From positions 1 to 62,522 of the forward strand of contig JBDTAC010000010.1 in assembly GCA_039924845.1 (NCBI GenBank): a stretch of DNA of 62,522 bases, read 5' to 3'. The position numbers and the translations under genes are program-made. Below, piece after piece: positions 14,329 to 44,713 of this stretch; the stretch's first letter is position 1; each line of letters opens with the position of its first letter. The notes below the pieces were generated by a model. That model worked only from the letters and a program-made list of their open reading frames with translations, did no database searches and was not told the DNA's origin. The DNA is from Bacteroidia bacterium (GTDB lineage Bacteria; Bacteroidota; Bacteroidia; DATLTG01).

Positions 14329-14487
14329 ATGACAACAACTTCAATAGGACATATTTACAAGGACTATCGAAAGGATCATAAAGGAACGCCTTCCTTTATG
14401 ATTGACTTTTACAATGAGCATTTTATTTTTCTTAACAACATTAAATCATTCTCCGACAGCGAAGAATTAAGCATATCTACAAATTGA
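14329..14487 (+). CDS. 52-residue small protein, translationally coupled to the next gene
   Basis: A short open frame, beginning MTTTSIGHIYKDYRKDHKG. The middle (PSFMIDFYNEHFIFLNN) looks protein-like and there is no membrane segment. Its TGA stop overlaps the ATG of the next gene by one base (TGATG), the usual sign of translational coupling and the main reason to believe it. The function is unknown. Confidence 0.45.
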   Translation: MTTTSIGHIYKDYRKDHKGTPSFMIDFYNEHFIFLNNIKSFSDSEELSISTN

Positions 14488-31532: not shown

Positions 31533-31568
31533 ATGATTTATATCATACTATTTCATGAGATGTATCAT
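31533..31568 (+). promoter_or_regulatory. Two operator-like dyads upstream of nirK
   Basis: ATGATTTATATCAT (31533-31546) and ATGAGATGTATCAT (31555-31568) both read ATGA-N6-TCAT. Their centres are 22 bases apart, two turns of the helix. From a start near 31604 they lie at about -43 and -65, usual positions for a CRP/FNR-type activator. Sites are seen; the regulator is inferred. Confidence 0.55.
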
Positions 31569-31591
31569 AGAACTCGAAAAAGGTATTTATC

Positions 31592-31599
31592 TATTTTTG
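31592..31599 (+). promoter_or_regulatory. -7 element of nirK
   Basis: TATTTTTG matches TAnnTTTG and lies 25 bases before the ATG at 31624. No TTG is seen at -33, which fits a promoter that needs an activator. Confidence 0.55.
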
Positions 31600-31623
31600 T
31601 CCCGTTATAAAACAAAAACCTAT

Positions 31624-33117
31624 ATGAAAAGGCTACTAAACACTAAAAATTATTTTTTACTGCTGCTTGCAGCTGTAATTTTTCAAACAAACTTTAACAG
31701 TTGTACAACCGAACCTTCGGTTACTAAACAAAAAGCCGATTCCACTTATGGTGGTCAATACGAAGCAAGGCTTTCGTATGCTCCCAATGTCCCGGAGGAA
31801 GTTAATTATGGTCATCCAATGAAGGTGGTTGTGCATTTGAATATTATCGAAAAAGTAATGCGTTTGGCAGATGGTGTAACGTATGATTTTTGGACATTTG
31901 GCGGACAAGTGCCAGGTAAATTTATTCGTATCCACGTGGGGGATGAAGTTGAATTTCATCTCAGTAATGACCCGAACGATAAAATGCCTCACTCCATTGA
32001 TATGCATGCTGTAACAGGACCAGGTGGAGGCGCAGAAGCTTCTATGACCGCTCCTGGACACACATCCATATTTTCATTTAAAGCCCTTGAAGCAGGATTG
32101 TTCCTTTATCATTGTGCGACCGCTCCAGTTGGAATGCACATTGCCAACGGAATGTATGGATTAGTATTAGTAGAACCTCGCGAAGGACTTCCGCACGTTG
32201 ATAAAGAATTTTACATCATGCAATCGGAAGTATATACTACTGGTAAATATGGCGATCAAGGACTTCAAGCATTTGACATGCAAAAAGCATTACTCGAACA
32301 ACCTAATTATGTTATATTTAATGGTTCTGTCGGTTCTACTATCGGGGCTAATGCTTTACACGCAAAAGTGGGCGAAAAGGTGCGCTTTTATGTAGGAAAT
32401 GCCGGACCAAATTTTGTTTCTTCTTTTCATATTATTGGTGAAATCATGGATACAGTAAGAATAGACGGTGGTACCTTAGAAAATCACAATGTACAAACTA
32501 CTCTTATTCCTTCTGGTGGAGCTGAAATAGTGGAGTTTACTTGTAAAGTGCCAGGGACTTATACGATTGTTGATCATTCTATTTTTAGGGCATTCAACCA
32601 AGGAGCTTTGGCTCAACTGATAGTTTCAGGTCCAGAAGACAGTGCGATTTATTCTCATAAACAACAAGATATAGTGTATCTGCCGGAAGGATCCATATTA
32701 CAGTCGATGTCTCAACCTGTACAACCTGCAATTGAAGAGAGAACAATGGAAGAGCGATTGACATTGGGAAAAATAAGATTTGAAAGCACTTGCGCCGCAT
32801 GTCACATGTTTAATGCACAAGGCGTACCGGGATCTTTTCCTCCGCTTGCTGGCTCTAATTTCTTAATGCCTCGTCAAGATAAAGGAATTCAAATTCTATT
32901 ACACGGTTTAACAGGTGAAGTTACGGTTAATGGAAATAAATTTAACGGAGTAATGCCGCAATTGGGATTAAGTGATGATGAGATTGCCAATGTATTAACG
33001 TATGTTCGTAATAATTTCGGAAATAAAGACGGATTAGTTACAGCGAAAATGGTAGCAGATTATAGAAAACAAGGCGATAAACCTGCAGTAACACATCCAA
33101 GTAAAAAGAAAAAATAA
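31624..33117 (+). CDS. nirK: Copper nitrite reductase with C-terminal cytochrome c domain (lipoprotein)
   Basis: A 497-residue NirK that reduces nitrite to nitric oxide. A lipobox (FNSC) ends the signal peptide. Two cupredoxin domains carry the copper ligands: HSIDMHAVTG (type 2 His plus active-site Asp), LYHCATAPVGMHIANGM (type 1 His, Cys, His, Met) and SFHIIGE (type 2 His in domain 2). The C-terminal ~100 residues are a cytochrome c (CAACHMF, with FNGVMPQLG as likely Met ligand). This is the three-domain fused form. The frame starts at 31555, but ATG at 31624 matches the signal peptide. Confidence 0.95.
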   Translation: MKRLLNTKNYFLLLLAAVIFQTNFNSCTTEPSVTKQKADSTYGGQYEARLSYAPNVPEEVNYGHPMKVVVHLNIIEKVMRLADGVTYDFWTFGGQVPGKFIRIHVGDEVEFHLSNDPNDKMPHSIDMHAVTGPGGGAEASMTAPGHTSIFSFKALEAGLFLYHCATAPVGMHIANGMYGLVLVEPREGLPHVDKEFYIMQSEVYTTGKYGDQGLQAFDMQKALLEQPNYVIFNGSVGSTIGANALHAKVGEKVRFYVGNAGPNFVSSFHIIGEIMDTVRIDGGTLENHNVQTTLIPSGGAEIVEFTCKVPGTYTIVDHSIFRAFNQGALAQLIVSGPEDSAIYSHKQQDIVYLPEGSILQSMSQPVQPAIEERTMEERLTLGKIRFESTCAACHMFNAQGVPGSFPPLAGSNFLMPRQDKGIQILLHGLTGEVTVNGNKFNGVMPQLGLSDDEIANVLTYVRNNFGNKDGLVTAKMVADYRKQGDKPAVTHPSKKKK

Positions 33118-33122
33118 TAATT

Positions 33123-33908
33123 GTGGGGCGGAAAAAAATTATCTGTCTGTGTATTGTGATTGGCTTAACGTCAGCTTTTGCTGACGTTAAGGCTTATTCT
33201 GCAAACATCGGAGAAAATAAGTCTATCGTGCATACTGGAATGGTTAAAATTCCGGAAGGTTATTTCGCACCTTTTTTCAAAACGTATGGCGGAAGCAAAA
33301 TAAAAGTTCCGAGTTTTTATTTGGATATTTATCCCGTTACCAATCAAGAGTTTCTTGCATTCGTAAAAGCCAATCCAATTTGGTCGAAATCAAAAGTAAA
33401 TCGTTTATTTGCCGACACGAATTATTTAAAAGATTGGAAAAGTGATTTCAATTTTGGTGGAAATCTTAGCAATGCGCCCGTTACAAATGTTTCTTGGTTT
33501 GCTGCAAATGCGTATTGCAAATGGAAAGGAAAACGCTTGCCTACGCTGGCAGAATGGGAATATGTTTCAGCAGCCAACCCTATCGGCAGAAATAGTTACG
33601 ACACTGTTTCATTGGCTACTTACATCTTAAATTGGTACAACAAACCAACGCCAAAAACGATTCCAGCTATTCACAGCACATTCGAAAATAAATTAGGTGT
33701 TTGGGATATGAACGGATTGGTATGGGAATGGATTTTTGATTTTAACATTCCTTCGAGTTCGTCATCCACTTGTGCAGGAATATCTATAGGCGTTGTGAAT
33801 AAAGAAAATTATGCTGCCTTCCTTCGCTATTCTTTTAGGAGCAGTTTAAAAGCAAATTATGCTGTCAGAGATTTAGGTTTTAGATGCGCTATGGACGCGT
33901 CCAAATAA
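33123..33908 (+). CDS. nirV: NirV-like formylglycine-generating-enzyme family protein
   Basis: A 261-residue secreted protein (signal peptide to ~residue 25) of the FGE-sulfatase fold: VKIPEGYF, FYLDIYPVTNQEFLAFV, PVTNVSWFAANAYCKWKGKRLPTLAEWEYVS, WDMNGLVWEW and a final DLGFRCA. Proteins of this kind next to nirK are called NirV; their role in nitrite reductase maturation is not settled. The start is GTG at 33123, 5 bases after nirK, so both share a message. Confidence 0.85.
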   Translation: MGRKKIICLCIVIGLTSAFADVKAYSANIGENKSIVHTGMVKIPEGYFAPFFKTYGGSKIKVPSFYLDIYPVTNQEFLAFVKANPIWSKSKVNRLFADTNYLKDWKSDFNFGGNLSNAPVTNVSWFAANAYCKWKGKRLPTLAEWEYVSAANPIGRNSYDTVSLATYILNWYNKPTPKTIPAIHSTFENKLGVWDMNGLVWEWIFDFNIPSSSSSTCAGISIGVVNKENYAAFLRYSFRSSLKANYAVRDLGFRCAMDASK

Positions 33909-33942
33909 ATAGAGATTAACAAAATATAATTCTAGAAAGAAG

Positions 33943-34569
33943 ATGAAAACAATTAAAAACATATTGCCAGTCGGATTGATTTTAGGAGTTCTACTTTTTA
34001 ATTCGTGTACCAATAAAAAAGTGCCAGATTGTTGTAAAAATAAGATGAAAGATACCACTTCTTCCAAAACAGAAAGCACTTCCGATTTGTCTATTTATCA
34101 ATTAAACGGAACTTGGGAAACGCAAAACAATCAACAAATTAATCTTACTGCATTAAAAGGAAAAATACAAGTCCTTACTATGTTTTTTAGCAATTGTACG
34201 TATGCGTGTCCGCGTATCGTAAACAATCTGAAAAATATAGAAAAAGAAATTCCAGCTAACTTAATTCCGCAAGTCGGATTTACACTTGTCTCTTTTGATA
34301 CGAAAAGAGATACGGTTGCCAGATTAAAAGCTTTTGCCAAGGAAATGAAGTTGGATGGAAATTGGACATTGCTTCACGGAGATGAAAATGAAGTGCGCGA
34401 ATTATCTATGTTGTTGAACGTAGATTATCAAAAGCAAAGCGATGGAAACTTTGCCCACGCGAGCGTTATTAATGTGTTGGATAAGGATGGAAAAATAATT
34501 TTTCGACACGAAGGTTTAGATTCCGATTCAACTGAAGTAGTTCAAAAAATTATTTCCGCACTGAAATAA
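33943..34569 (+). CDS. SCO1/SenC-family copper chaperone lipoprotein
   Basis: A 208-residue lipoprotein (signal peptide with lipobox LFNSC). The thioredoxin-like SCO domain has the copper-binding motif SNCTYACPR (CxxxCP) near residue 88 and the conserved His in NFAHASV near 174. SCO proteins insert copper in cytochrome oxidase; here the place after nirK-nirV suggests supply of copper to NirK. A second cysteine cluster DCCKNK lies near the N-terminus. Confidence 0.9.
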   Translation: MKTIKNILPVGLILGVLLFNSCTNKKVPDCCKNKMKDTTSSKTESTSDLSIYQLNGTWETQNNQQINLTALKGKIQVLTMFFSNCTYACPRIVNNLKNIEKEIPANLIPQVGFTLVSFDTKRDTVARLKAFAKEMKLDGNWTLLHGDENEVRELSMLLNVDYQKQSDGNFAHASVINVLDKDGKIIFRHEGLDSDSTEVVQKIISALK

Positions 34570-34990: not shown

Positions 34991-35512
34991 ATGTATAAAT
35001 TCATTTCTATCACTTTTTTGGCAGTGCTGTTATCTGCTTCTGGCTACGCTCAATCACGTCCATTGAGTGTAGGCGATAAAATGCCTTTGTTTTCTCTGAA
35101 AGATCAGGATGGCAAAACATTTAACATGAAAGATTCTGTCGGGAATAAATTATTTGTTATTTTTTTCTATCCGAAAGATGAAAGTCCGGTTTGTACAAAA
35201 GAAGCCTGTACTTTCAGAGACAGCTTAAATATGTTTGCACAAGCAGGTGCGGAAGTGATTGGAATTAATCAAGGTACAGTCGAGAGTCATAAAAAATTTC
35301 AGCAAGATGATAAACTCAATTACGAATTATTGAGCGACCCAGACGAAAAAGTAATCAAAGCATTTGGCGTTAAAAAAGGATTATTTACTACCCGAATAAC
35401 TTTTATCGTAGATATTTCAGGAGAGATTGTTTTCGAGTACGAATCAAAGTTTGATGGTAAAAAACATGTTGCGGAAGCACTTAATTTTGTAAAGACATTG
35501 AAGAAACAATAA
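34991..35512 (+). CDS. Secreted BCP/PrxQ-type peroxiredoxin
   Basis: A 173-residue peroxiredoxin with a signal peptide (ends GYAQ). LFVIFFYPKDESPVCTKEACTF has the peroxidatic Cys and, 5 residues on, a resolving Cys as in PrxQ/BCP. It reduces peroxides, here in the periplasm, probably with a thioredoxin-like partner. It may protect against oxidative or nitrosative stress with the nearby nitrite reductase genes; this is inference. Confidence 0.9.
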   Translation: MYKFISITFLAVLLSASGYAQSRPLSVGDKMPLFSLKDQDGKTFNMKDSVGNKLFVIFFYPKDESPVCTKEACTFRDSLNMFAQAGAEVIGINQGTVESHKKFQQDDKLNYELLSDPDEKVIKAFGVKKGLFTTRITFIVDISGEIVFEYESKFDGKKHVAEALNFVKTLKKQ

Positions 35513-36205: not shown

Positions 36206-36250
36206 GCAGTAAACATAAGGTAATTTTTCGTGTGAGAACGCATTCTTTTA

Positions 36251-36280
36251 TAGTTACGAAAAAATAATTTTTCGTAACTA
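36251..36280 (-). terminator. Terminator of the NHL-repeat gene built on a palindrome copy
   Basis: A near-perfect 30-base inverted repeat begins with the TAG stop codon of the gene: TAGTTACGAAAAA pairs with TTTTTCGTAACTA. It is the strongest stem among the palindrome copies here. Confidence 0.7.
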
Positions 36281-37615
36281 TTGTACCACAATTTTTCCGT
36301 CAGAAATTATTTTTCCATCATCCGAAAAAATTTTGCAAAAATAAATTCCTTTTGCTTCAGCACTTAAATCAATTTGTGTTTGCGCTGAATTGAGCGTTTG
36401 AAAAATTATTTTTTCACCCAACACATTATAGACTTCTATATTTAGCTTTTGAAAATTATTTTTTTGAACGACATTAAAAATTCCGTTATTCGGATTTGGA
36501 AAAATATTAATTGAAGCATTTGAAAAAATATTTTCCGAAACACCTGTTGTTCCTGTTACTTCACGAATTCGCGCACCTGTGGCAATGTAAATATTGTAAG
36601 ATGCATCAACAGCAACACCCTGAATGGTATCAATTGCGGCATTAACCGCAGGTCCTCCATCGCCACTATAATTATTTATTCCATTTCCAGCAACAGTGGT
36701 AATAATCCCAGATGTATTTACTTCACGAATTCGAAAATTGCCCCAAACAGCTATATATATATTTCCAACTGCATCAACCGCTACTCCAGAAGAAAAATTT
36801 AATTCAGCTGCGGTTGCCACTCCACCATCTCCACTATAACCTTGGATTCCATTTCCGGCAATGGTCGTAATAATACCGCTTGTATTTACTTTTCGAATGC
36901 GTTGATTGCCTTCATCAGATATATATACATTTCCAGTTGCATCAACCGCTACTCCGTTAGGGTCATTTAATTCAGCTACGGTTGCCAATCCGCCATCTCC
37001 ACCATAACCAGAAGTTCCATTTCCAGCAATGGTCGTAATAGTTCCACTCGTATTTATTTTGCGTACACGATAATTGTTGCCATCAGATATAAATACATTT
37101 CCAGTTGCATCAACCGCAACTCCGTTAGGGTAATTTAATTCAGCTGCGGTTGCCGCTCCACCATCTCCACTATAACCTTGAATTCCATTTCCCGCAATGG
37201 TGGAAATAATTCCACTGCTATTTATTTTGCGAATGCAATTATTTTGCGTGTCGGCAATATATACATTACCTGCTACATCTACTGCTACTTCTTGGGGATA
37301 ACTCAATTGTGCTGCAGTTGCAACTCCTCCATCTCCACTATAACCAGCGGTTCCATTCCCAGCAATGGTGCTTATAATACCACTCGTATTTATTTTTCGA
37401 ATCCGATTATTGAATTGATCTACAATAAATACATTTCCACTGGCATCCACTGCTATTCCATAAGGAGAATTAAATTCTGCAGAAGTTGCAGCAAATCCGT
37501 CTCCACTAAAACCTTGAATTCCATTTCCCGCAATGGTGTTTATGATTTGTGCATTTCCTTTGTTAGCAAAAGCAAATAATGCAATTGCGATTGTAGAGAG
37601 TAGGATTTTTTTCAT
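36278..37615 (-). CDS. Secreted NHL-repeat protein with type IX secretion C-terminal domain
   Basis: A 445-residue protein with a signal peptide (ends KGNAQ). Six similar repeats of ~53 residues (I-x-T-I-A-G-N-G-x-x-G-Y-S-G-D-G-G, G-V-A-V-D-x-x-G-N-V-Y-I-x-D, RIRK-V/I-NTSG) form an NHL beta-propeller. The last ~80 residues (SINIFPNPNNGIFNV to GKIVVQ) are a type A T9SS sorting domain. It is likely a surface or released protein of unknown binding role. Palindrome copies at 36396-36416, 36448-36468 and near 36520 fall in the sorting domain. Confidence 0.93.
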   Translation of the reverse strand: MKKILLSTIAIALFAFANKGNAQIINTIAGNGIQGFSGDGFAATSAEFNSPYGIAVDASGNVFIVDQFNNRIRKINTSGIISTIAGNGTAGYSGDGGVATAAQLSYPQEVAVDVAGNVYIADTQNNCIRKINSSGIISTIAGNGIQGYSGDGGAATAAELNYPNGVAVDATGNVFISDGNNYRVRKINTSGTITTIAGNGTSGYGGDGGLATVAELNDPNGVAVDATGNVYISDEGNQRIRKVNTSGIITTIAGNGIQGYSGDGGVATAAELNFSSGVAVDAVGNIYIAVWGNFRIREVNTSGIITTVAGNGINNYSGDGGPAVNAAIDTIQGVAVDASYNIYIATGARIREVTGTTGVSENIFSNASINIFPNPNNGIFNVVQKNNFQKLNIEVYNVLGEKIIFQTLNSAQTQIDLSAEAKGIYFCKIFSDDGKIISDGKIVVQ

Positions 37616-39144: not shown

Positions 39145-39170
39145 GCACAAAGATTCTTGTATCTTTGTGC
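39145..39170 (+). promoter_or_regulatory. Dyad overlapping the -7 element of the Cys-rich gene
   Basis: GCACAAAGAT-TCTTGT-ATCTTTGTGC is a perfect 10-base inverted repeat with a 6-base loop. Its right arm contains the -7 element TATCTTTG (39160-39167). There is no T run after it, so an operator is more likely than a terminator. Confidence 0.5.
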
Positions 39171-39232
39171 CACTTAAATTTTTACATTCACAAAAAAATA
39201 ATTTTTTCAACCCTTAAAAAATAAATTTCAAA

Positions 39233-39724
39233 ATGAAAAAAATCATAAAACTATTATTTGTTTCCGTACTTGCTGGCGGACTTGCTTTCGCGATGTCATC
39301 GTGCAACGGAAAAGATTCAAAAACTGGCGCTAATGGAAAAGACAGCACTGCCGTGAAAACATGTTCGAAAGACACCAGTAAAATGGCTTGTTGCAAAGGA
39401 GGACACGAGTGTATGAAAGGTTGCGACAAAGGTTGCAAAACGGATTCGGCTTGTATGAAAAATTGTGGGCCAGAATGTGGAAAACAAGGCATGATGCAAT
39501 GTATGAAAGACCATGGTTGTTCTGCACACGAGTGTATGAAAGGCTGTGATAAAAATTGCAAAAGCGATTCGGCTTGTATGAAAAGTTGTGGCGAAAAATG
39601 CAGCAAATCAGGTGCTTCTTGCACTGCAGGAGGTTGTATGAAAGGTTGCGATATGGGCTGCAAAAATAAAGCAGAATGTATGAAGAACTGCGGAGAAAAA
39701 TGTGCTAAAGGACATACGATGTAA
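39233..39724 (+). CDS. Cys/Met-rich lipoprotein with repeated metal-binding-like units
   Basis: A 163-residue lipoprotein (signal peptide with lipobox MSSC). From ~residue 45 it is built of four or five related units of about 20-26 residues, pattern ECMKGCDKGCK-(T/S)DSACMK(N/S)CG-x-(E/K)CGK. Cys occurs roughly every four residues, with Met before many of them (CMKGC, CMKNC). Such spacing suits soft-metal (copper, zinc) binding or a disulfide-rich rod. No known family was recognised. Its own promoter and terminator flank it. The position near copper nitrite reductase and SCO genes is suggestive only. Confidence 0.85.
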   Translation: MKKIIKLLFVSVLAGGLAFAMSSCNGKDSKTGANGKDSTAVKTCSKDTSKMACCKGGHECMKGCDKGCKTDSACMKNCGPECGKQGMMQCMKDHGCSAHECMKGCDKNCKSDSACMKSCGEKCSKSGASCTAGGCMKGCDMGCKNKAECMKNCGEKCAKGHTM

Positions 39725-39749
39725 TTTTTTTTCGAAAAATATTTCTAAA

Positions 39750-39777
39750 AGCTTCGTGTAAAAACGAGGCTTTTTTT
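39750..39777 (+). terminator. Intrinsic terminator of the Cys-rich gene
   Basis: AGCTTCGT pairs with ACGAGGCT (one T-G wobble) around a short loop and is followed by seven T. A standard rho-independent terminator. Confidence 0.8.
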
Positions 39778-44633: not shown

Positions 44634-44656
44634 GTTATAGGCTATTAAATAAGTGT

Positions 44657-44689
44657 AAAAAGAGAATCCCGCAATGGAATTCTCTTTTT
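44657..44689 (-). terminator. Intrinsic terminator of the PorV-like gene
   Basis: AAAAAGAGAAT pairs perfectly with ATTCTCTTTTT across an 11-base loop. It lies 25-57 bases after the PorV-like stop and ends in T on the minus strand. Confidence 0.8.
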
Positions 44690-44713
44690 AACAAAATTAA
44701 GAAAAAAAACGAA

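Follow-up and report, generated by a model that had tools for sequence, protein, structure and literature searches.

The window analysed here, the whole stretch of 62,522 nucleotides, contains a small gene for a Cys/Met-rich repeat lipoprotein, which lies among the following features.

39145–39170 (no strand): perfect 10-bp inverted repeat, GCACAAAGAT-TCTTGT-ATCTTTGTGC, able to form a hairpin and occurring once in exact form in the genome
39160–39167 (+): TATCTTTG, a sigma-A −7 promoter box (TAnnTTTG, motif per PMC9723704) 73 nt before the ATG, of a kind enriched upstream of ORFs
39233–39724 (+): open reading frame of the 163-residue lipoprotein, which has no Pfam, NCBIfam or PDB relative
39233–39304 (+): putative signal peptide with lipobox MSSC and lipidated Cys24, read off the sequence
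39404–39490 (+): unit 1, HECMKGCDKGCKTDSACMKNCGPECGKQG, residues 58–86, six Cys at spacings of 4, 4, 6, 4 and 4 (E 2.1e-14 with a profile that includes this unit)
39527–39613 (+): unit 2, HECMKGCDKNCKSDSACMKSCGEKCSKSG, residues 99–127 (E 1.5e-13, same profile, this unit included)
39632–39715 (+): unit 3, GCMKGCDMGCKNKAECMKNCGEKCAKGH, residues 134–161, aligning with the terminal module of membrane pyrophosphatase tails in alignments A1 and A4 (E 5.4e-14, same profile, this unit included)
39747–39774 (+): intrinsic terminator

The product is a predicted bacterial lipoprotein. A Sec signal with a lipobox Cys, read directly as MKKIIKLLFVSVLAGGLAFAMSS-C and terminating in LAFAMSSC, leads through a short Ser/Asp/Lys linker into three six-Cys units. 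The 139 residues past the lipidated Cys include 24 Cys (17%), 12 Met (8.6%) and 25 Lys, whereas Leu, Ile, Phe, Trp and Tyr are all absent. A hydrophobic core is thus impossible, and any fold must depend on Cys. An earlier note on this DNA had described a Cys/Met-rich repeat lipoprotein, lipid-anchored outside the inner membrane. The reading frame and its composition bear out the description, and the lipobox signal supports a protein that would be membrane-anchored and extracytoplasmic.

How regular are the repeats? All three units follow the pattern C-x3-C-x3-C-x5-C-x3-C-x3-C, with Met after C1 and Gly after C5, while Cys 44, 53, 54, 90, 96 and 130 lie loose outside them. The four or five units of the earlier note are therefore three complete ones plus loose Cys, but the repeat nature of the protein stands far above chance (E from 2e-14 to 2e-13 in a genome search, the profile itself including the three units). 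Alignment A5 comprises 37 units; all six Cys are kept in 33 of 34 units, C1 being lost in the remaining one, and the six Cys of unit 3 are invariant in alignment A4 with the modules of the pyrophosphatase tails. Units 1 and 2 differ mainly at synonymous positions (dN 0.14, dS 0.78); in the pairs that involve unit 3, synonymous sites are saturated. We conclude that purifying selection has acted on the protein sequence.

Probably the gene is transcribed on its own, since the terminator, which the earlier note had also placed there, lies 3′ of it and the downstream gene is convergent. That note had further called the unit regulated-looking, on account of a promoter embedded in a perfect dyad. The dyad is real and, in exact form, unique genome-wide; as RNA, its hairpin has a folding energy of −13.8 kcal/mol (z −6.2), and its right arm contains TATCTTTG. 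But TAnnTTTG is the standard flavobacterial sigma-A −7 box (PMC9723704), and 20 copies precede ORFs in this window where 6.4 would be expected. The dyad thus overlaps a housekeeping promoter box and does not establish regulation. Dyads that span a promoter can act as operators; alternatively, this one may be the 3′ hairpin of the preceding gene, starting as it does 13 nt past that gene's stop codon. A looser form, CAAAGAT-N2-14-ATCTTTG, occurs at three places in 2.66 Mb. Both copies elsewhere are intergenic: one (L142), which includes TATCTTTG as well, lies 18 nt ahead of a start codon, the other (L141) behind a gene on the opposite strand. The three sites share nothing else and define no regulon, and the idea of a dyad regulon was dropped. 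The L142 copy, at 1501–1518 of that locus, reads CAAAGAT-CTC-TATCTTTG and follows a cytochrome c lipoprotein gene. Of perfect inverted repeats with arms of at least 10 bp the window has four others, of 12–14 bp (14375–14402, 33164–33191, 36250–36281 and 44656–44690), which are apparently intergenic and possibly terminators. No riboswitch was found.

Does the protein belong to a known family? Searches with the lipoprotein returned no Pfam or NCBIfam family at E ≤ 10 and no match among PDB sequences, in agreement with the earlier view that it does not closely resemble metallothioneins or known copper chaperones. Profile matches of the unit to BPTI in the PDB (E 0.7–5) were set aside as chance, being confined to the stretch EDCMRTCG. 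Whole-protein searches gave a single match in GTDB contigs, itself a membrane pyrophosphatase tail, and, among 99 class relatives, two such tails and one signal-peptide match (L003). In the latter it is a similar lipoprotein signal (VFAMASC) that matches; by eye L003 is an NlpE-like lipoprotein. Plasmids yielded no match for the lipoprotein and none for a tail.

The search for homologues by profile, which the earlier note had proposed, led to a point that it had missed: the module recurs on the C-terminal tails of Bacteroidia membrane pyrophosphatases (M-PPases, PF03030). The earliest matches were to the C-termini of M-PPases of 800–900 residues (L004, L005 and L006). With profile A1, built from six units, the unit was found in 26 of the 395 Bacteroidia genomes sampled, that of the window included, and in one family it is present in 23 of 36 genomes. 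In all 25 other carriers it belongs to an M-PPase tail. The translated loci of 23 of them read on in frame from the conserved last membrane helix (GPSMNILIKLMSIVSLVIAPYIAV, or a close variant of it) into the unit; in the other two (G019 and G054) an interruption directly after the M-PPase gene precedes the unit. In G054 (L051 and L030; contig C4, 83500–84500) a stop codon separates the second module of the tail, module A, from its terminal Cys module, which may mean that the gene is broken, that the sequence is in error or that the stop is read through; the break in G019 is similar.

Module A, KCDMxKCxxMTKEECAxYCDSMKCSPEEKAMC, accompanies the unit in most tails and occurs in 55 of the 395 genomes. 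Its listed matches are M-PPase frames of about 790–906 residues or shorter, apparently contig-cut frames, and none among them is a small free-standing gene. In a sample of 296 genomes from across the phylum, all 13 carriers belong to the same class. A phylum draw searched with profile A2 (used only for this search, and having one row with two residues, HH, that are absent from the locus) yielded no further genome; the genomes of that draw differ from those of the class draw.

Only in the window's genome did we see the free-standing form. Here the unit does not sit behind a last M-PPase helix but in an open reading frame with its own signal peptide, and the M-PPase of the same genome ends in a YceI domain (E 4e-31) in place of the Cys module. 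We therefore class the lipoprotein as a free-standing variant of the module. It shares with the M-PPase tails the unit itself, the invariant Cys positions, the extracytoplasmic face and a membrane tether. It differs in having three copies alone on a lipid anchor, whereas the tails usually have one copy, mostly with module A, at the end of an integral ion pump.

What else do M-PPases carry at this place? Reading about 110 M-PPase C-termini, a set biased to long frames and carriers, we distinguished tails that are absent or short and tails of YceI, OmpA, FKBP or Cys-rich type; by a simple threshold 59 of 113 tails are Cys-rich in this set. Example loci are L007 (874–3573, −), with the YceI tail of the window's own genome; L053 and L093, with OmpA; L092 and L103, with an FKBP-type prolyl isomerase; and L052, L058 and others, with Cys-rich tails. 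Judged by these sequences, Bacteroidia M-PPases carry interchangeable C-terminal domains. Structures of the family have established that the M-PPase C-terminus lies outside, and YceI and OmpA, both extracytoplasmic domains, agree with this. Because unrelated domains share the position, we infer that the M-PPase provides an anchor in the periplasm and that the window's lipoprotein obtains the same result with a lipid. M-PPases pump ions outward to the periplasm (PMC11210485). An OmpA-like tail, the only one of these types that we found described, is reported in the same 2024 review, in which the word ‘cysteine’ does not occur (PMC11210485); we found no literature that joins M-PPases with cysteine-rich or YceI tails. 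The Cys tails match nothing in NCBIfam or the PDB, and in Pfam only by chance (E ≤ 1). Two tails from other families, L107 (G037) and L063 (G041), consist of simple Cys/His/Met repeats, ECHHMGDKECHHMG and CHGKMESCHGKMES respectively, and look like plain metal-ligand arrays.

Composition and spacing were determined for 57 distinct Cys tails (median 126 residues, 18 Cys). They contain 13.8% Cys, 8.4% Met and 3.0% Leu, Ile, Phe and Trp together; in tails without Cys, Met is 2.2%. Composition predicts about 140 occurrences each of CxC and CxxC, of which two and five were seen, while CxxxC (265 against 139 expected) and C-x7-C, the +8 spacing (299 against 134), are in excess. The lipoprotein agrees, with no CxC, no CxxC, 12 CxxxC and seven C-x7-C. 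Spacing of this kind marks Cys that line one face of a helix, and the near-absence of CxC and CxxC excludes motifs of the metallothionein and thioredoxin types. Odd Cys counts, found in 30 of the 57 tails, are about as frequent as even ones, and the second Cys of module A is lost alone in four sequences; the family as a whole therefore does not conform to an obligatory internal pairing of all Cys, although a left-over Cys could bond with one of another subunit. In an AlphaFold2 model unit 2 forms a helix–turn–helix (residues 98–109 and 113–126) with a pLDDT of about 83 for residues 101–120; overall confidence is low, the mean pLDDT being 56, and 73 for an isolated unit.

Three known systems invite comparison. 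The Csp copper storage proteins bind Cu(I) through helix Cys, with Met and His at the entry, and Csp1 is exported (PMC7558416). The lipoprotein resembles Csp1 and Csp3 in its many CxxxC-spaced Cys with Met or His nearby, these Cys lying in helices predicted with moderate confidence only. It matches neither the Csp family model nor the solved Csp chains, and its two-helix units without a hydrophobic core, on a lipid or M-PPase anchor, differ from the four-helix bundle of a Tat-exported tetramer. With bacterial metallothioneins of the SmtA type it has in common small size, richness in Cys, the lack of a hydrophobic core and, probably, folding upon its ligand. CxC and CxxC are the usual metallothionein motifs; here they are nearly absent, and the protein is extracytoplasmic and Met-rich. 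Finally, the CxxxC...CxxxC helix-hairpin pattern recalls the α-hairpinins, plant peptides whose two helices are joined by disulfides C1–C4 and C2–C3. The units differ from these in having three Cys per helix, in being bacterial, Met-rich and tandem, and in the odd Cys counts of their relatives; there is also no match to a PDB sequence.

The immediate neighbours of the gene encode a DAO-family oxidoreductase and an Opp permease. Upstream lie the following genes.

31555–33117: nitrite-reductase-like multicopper protein fused to cytochrome c
33943–34569: SCO1 lipoprotein
34991–35512: peroxiredoxin

The first two belong to a row (31555–34569) that also encodes a formylglycine-generating-enzyme-like, NirV-type protein. 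The N-terminus of the SCO1 lipoprotein, DCCKNKMKD, resembles the KACCKDK motif of the Cys tails. Situated about 5 kb from the lipoprotein gene, these copper genes are no more than suggestive and may be unrelated to it.

What, then, might the lipoprotein do? The reading we prefer, in which we place about even confidence, is that it is the stand-alone, lipid-anchored form of the Cys/Met module of M-PPase tails and acts as a membrane-tethered buffer of Cu(I) or other soft metals. It would work like the copper storage proteins, with no sequence relation to them. Each unit would consist of two short helices with three Cys apiece at four-residue spacing, whose six thiols, facing each other and with Met as neighbours, could hold clusters of Cu(I) or another soft metal; among periplasmic metals Cu(I) is the likeliest because of the Met. 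As there are no hydrophobic residues for a core, the chain would be largely unfolded without ligand and would fold around metal (or cystines). The tether, lipid here and an integral membrane protein in the relatives, would make it a high-capacity metal sink on the periplasm-facing membrane. The earlier note's proposal of a metal buffer thus gains indirectly, from the enrichment in Met, the Cys/His/Met repeats of sister tails, the odd Cys numbers, the CxxxC spacing and the copper genes 5 kb away; metal binding as such we infer. Against it count the absence of a metal transporter from the operon, of an identified copper-responsive element and of any solved or annotated relative in Pfam, NCBIfam or the PDB sequences. 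Moreover, periplasmic thiols are readily oxidised, and an even Cys total, 24 besides the lipidated one and six per unit, also fits disulfides.

That last point brings in the disulfide rod, which the earlier note had offered as its other possibility. Pairing C1–C6, C2–C5 and C3–C4 would staple each unit into an α-hairpinin-like rod, serving as a stable spacer or as an appendage of the surface that resists proteases, and having no role in metal binding. The unit is indeed the α-hairpinin pattern plus one rung, and the near-complete retention of its six Cys, the modelled helix–turn–helix and the oxidising periplasm all suit such a rod. But the odd Cys numbers, the lone losses in module A and of C1 in one unit, the irregular repeats of sister tails and a Met enrichment that would be purposeless in a rod weaken it, and we regard it as rather unlikely while leaving it a real share of probability. 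A helical, thiol-lined binder of soft metal suits the tail statistics better than a fully disulfide-bonded rod, and on balance we take the soft-metal buffer to be about twice as likely.

Could the thiols and Met instead absorb oxidants outside the cytoplasm, such as reactive chlorine or the nitrosative stress of denitrification, and be recycled by periplasmic reductases, with metal binding incidental? Cys and Met are the fastest-oxidised residues, and the nitrite-reductase-like and peroxiredoxin genes lie upstream. Yet no reductase partner and no dedicated operon were found, and CxxC, the usual motif of thiol–disulfide exchange, is strictly avoided, which leaves this explanation improbable. 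More doubtful still is a regulatory or assembly module of the M-PPase, cross-linking the dimer or gating the pump by redox state and acting here in trans as a lipoprotein. Every other genome in which the module was found has it as part of an M-PPase; however, the M-PPase of this genome has YceI instead, and in others the position is taken by OmpA, FKBP or a short tail. The pump can thus do without the module, and the tail has the look of cargo that can be exchanged.

Returning to the soft-metal buffer, we tentatively suggest, as a possibility that we hold somewhat short of even, that CxxxC helix hairpins with Met constitute a new extracytoplasmic metal-thiolate family on Bacteroidia membrane anchors, mostly at the outer end of an ion-pumping pyrophosphatase and here as a repeat lipoprotein. 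Csp1 is, to our knowledge, the main known case of metal-thiolate storage outside the cytoplasm. If the suggestion is true, the module would serve as a copper sink tethered to the membrane in the periplasm, and most carriers would have it coupled to an ion pump. This would be a second, unrelated solution to storage, one that a large bacterial class has fused to an energy-coupling pump and that neither Pfam nor NCBIfam contains. The alternative tails, whether Cys/Met, YceI, OmpA or FKBP, suggest the M-PPase as a general periplasmic anchor, and the link to it turns an orphan into a family open to testing. The finding would open up periplasmic copper handling in the Bacteroidota and point to an unsuspected second role for M-PPases.
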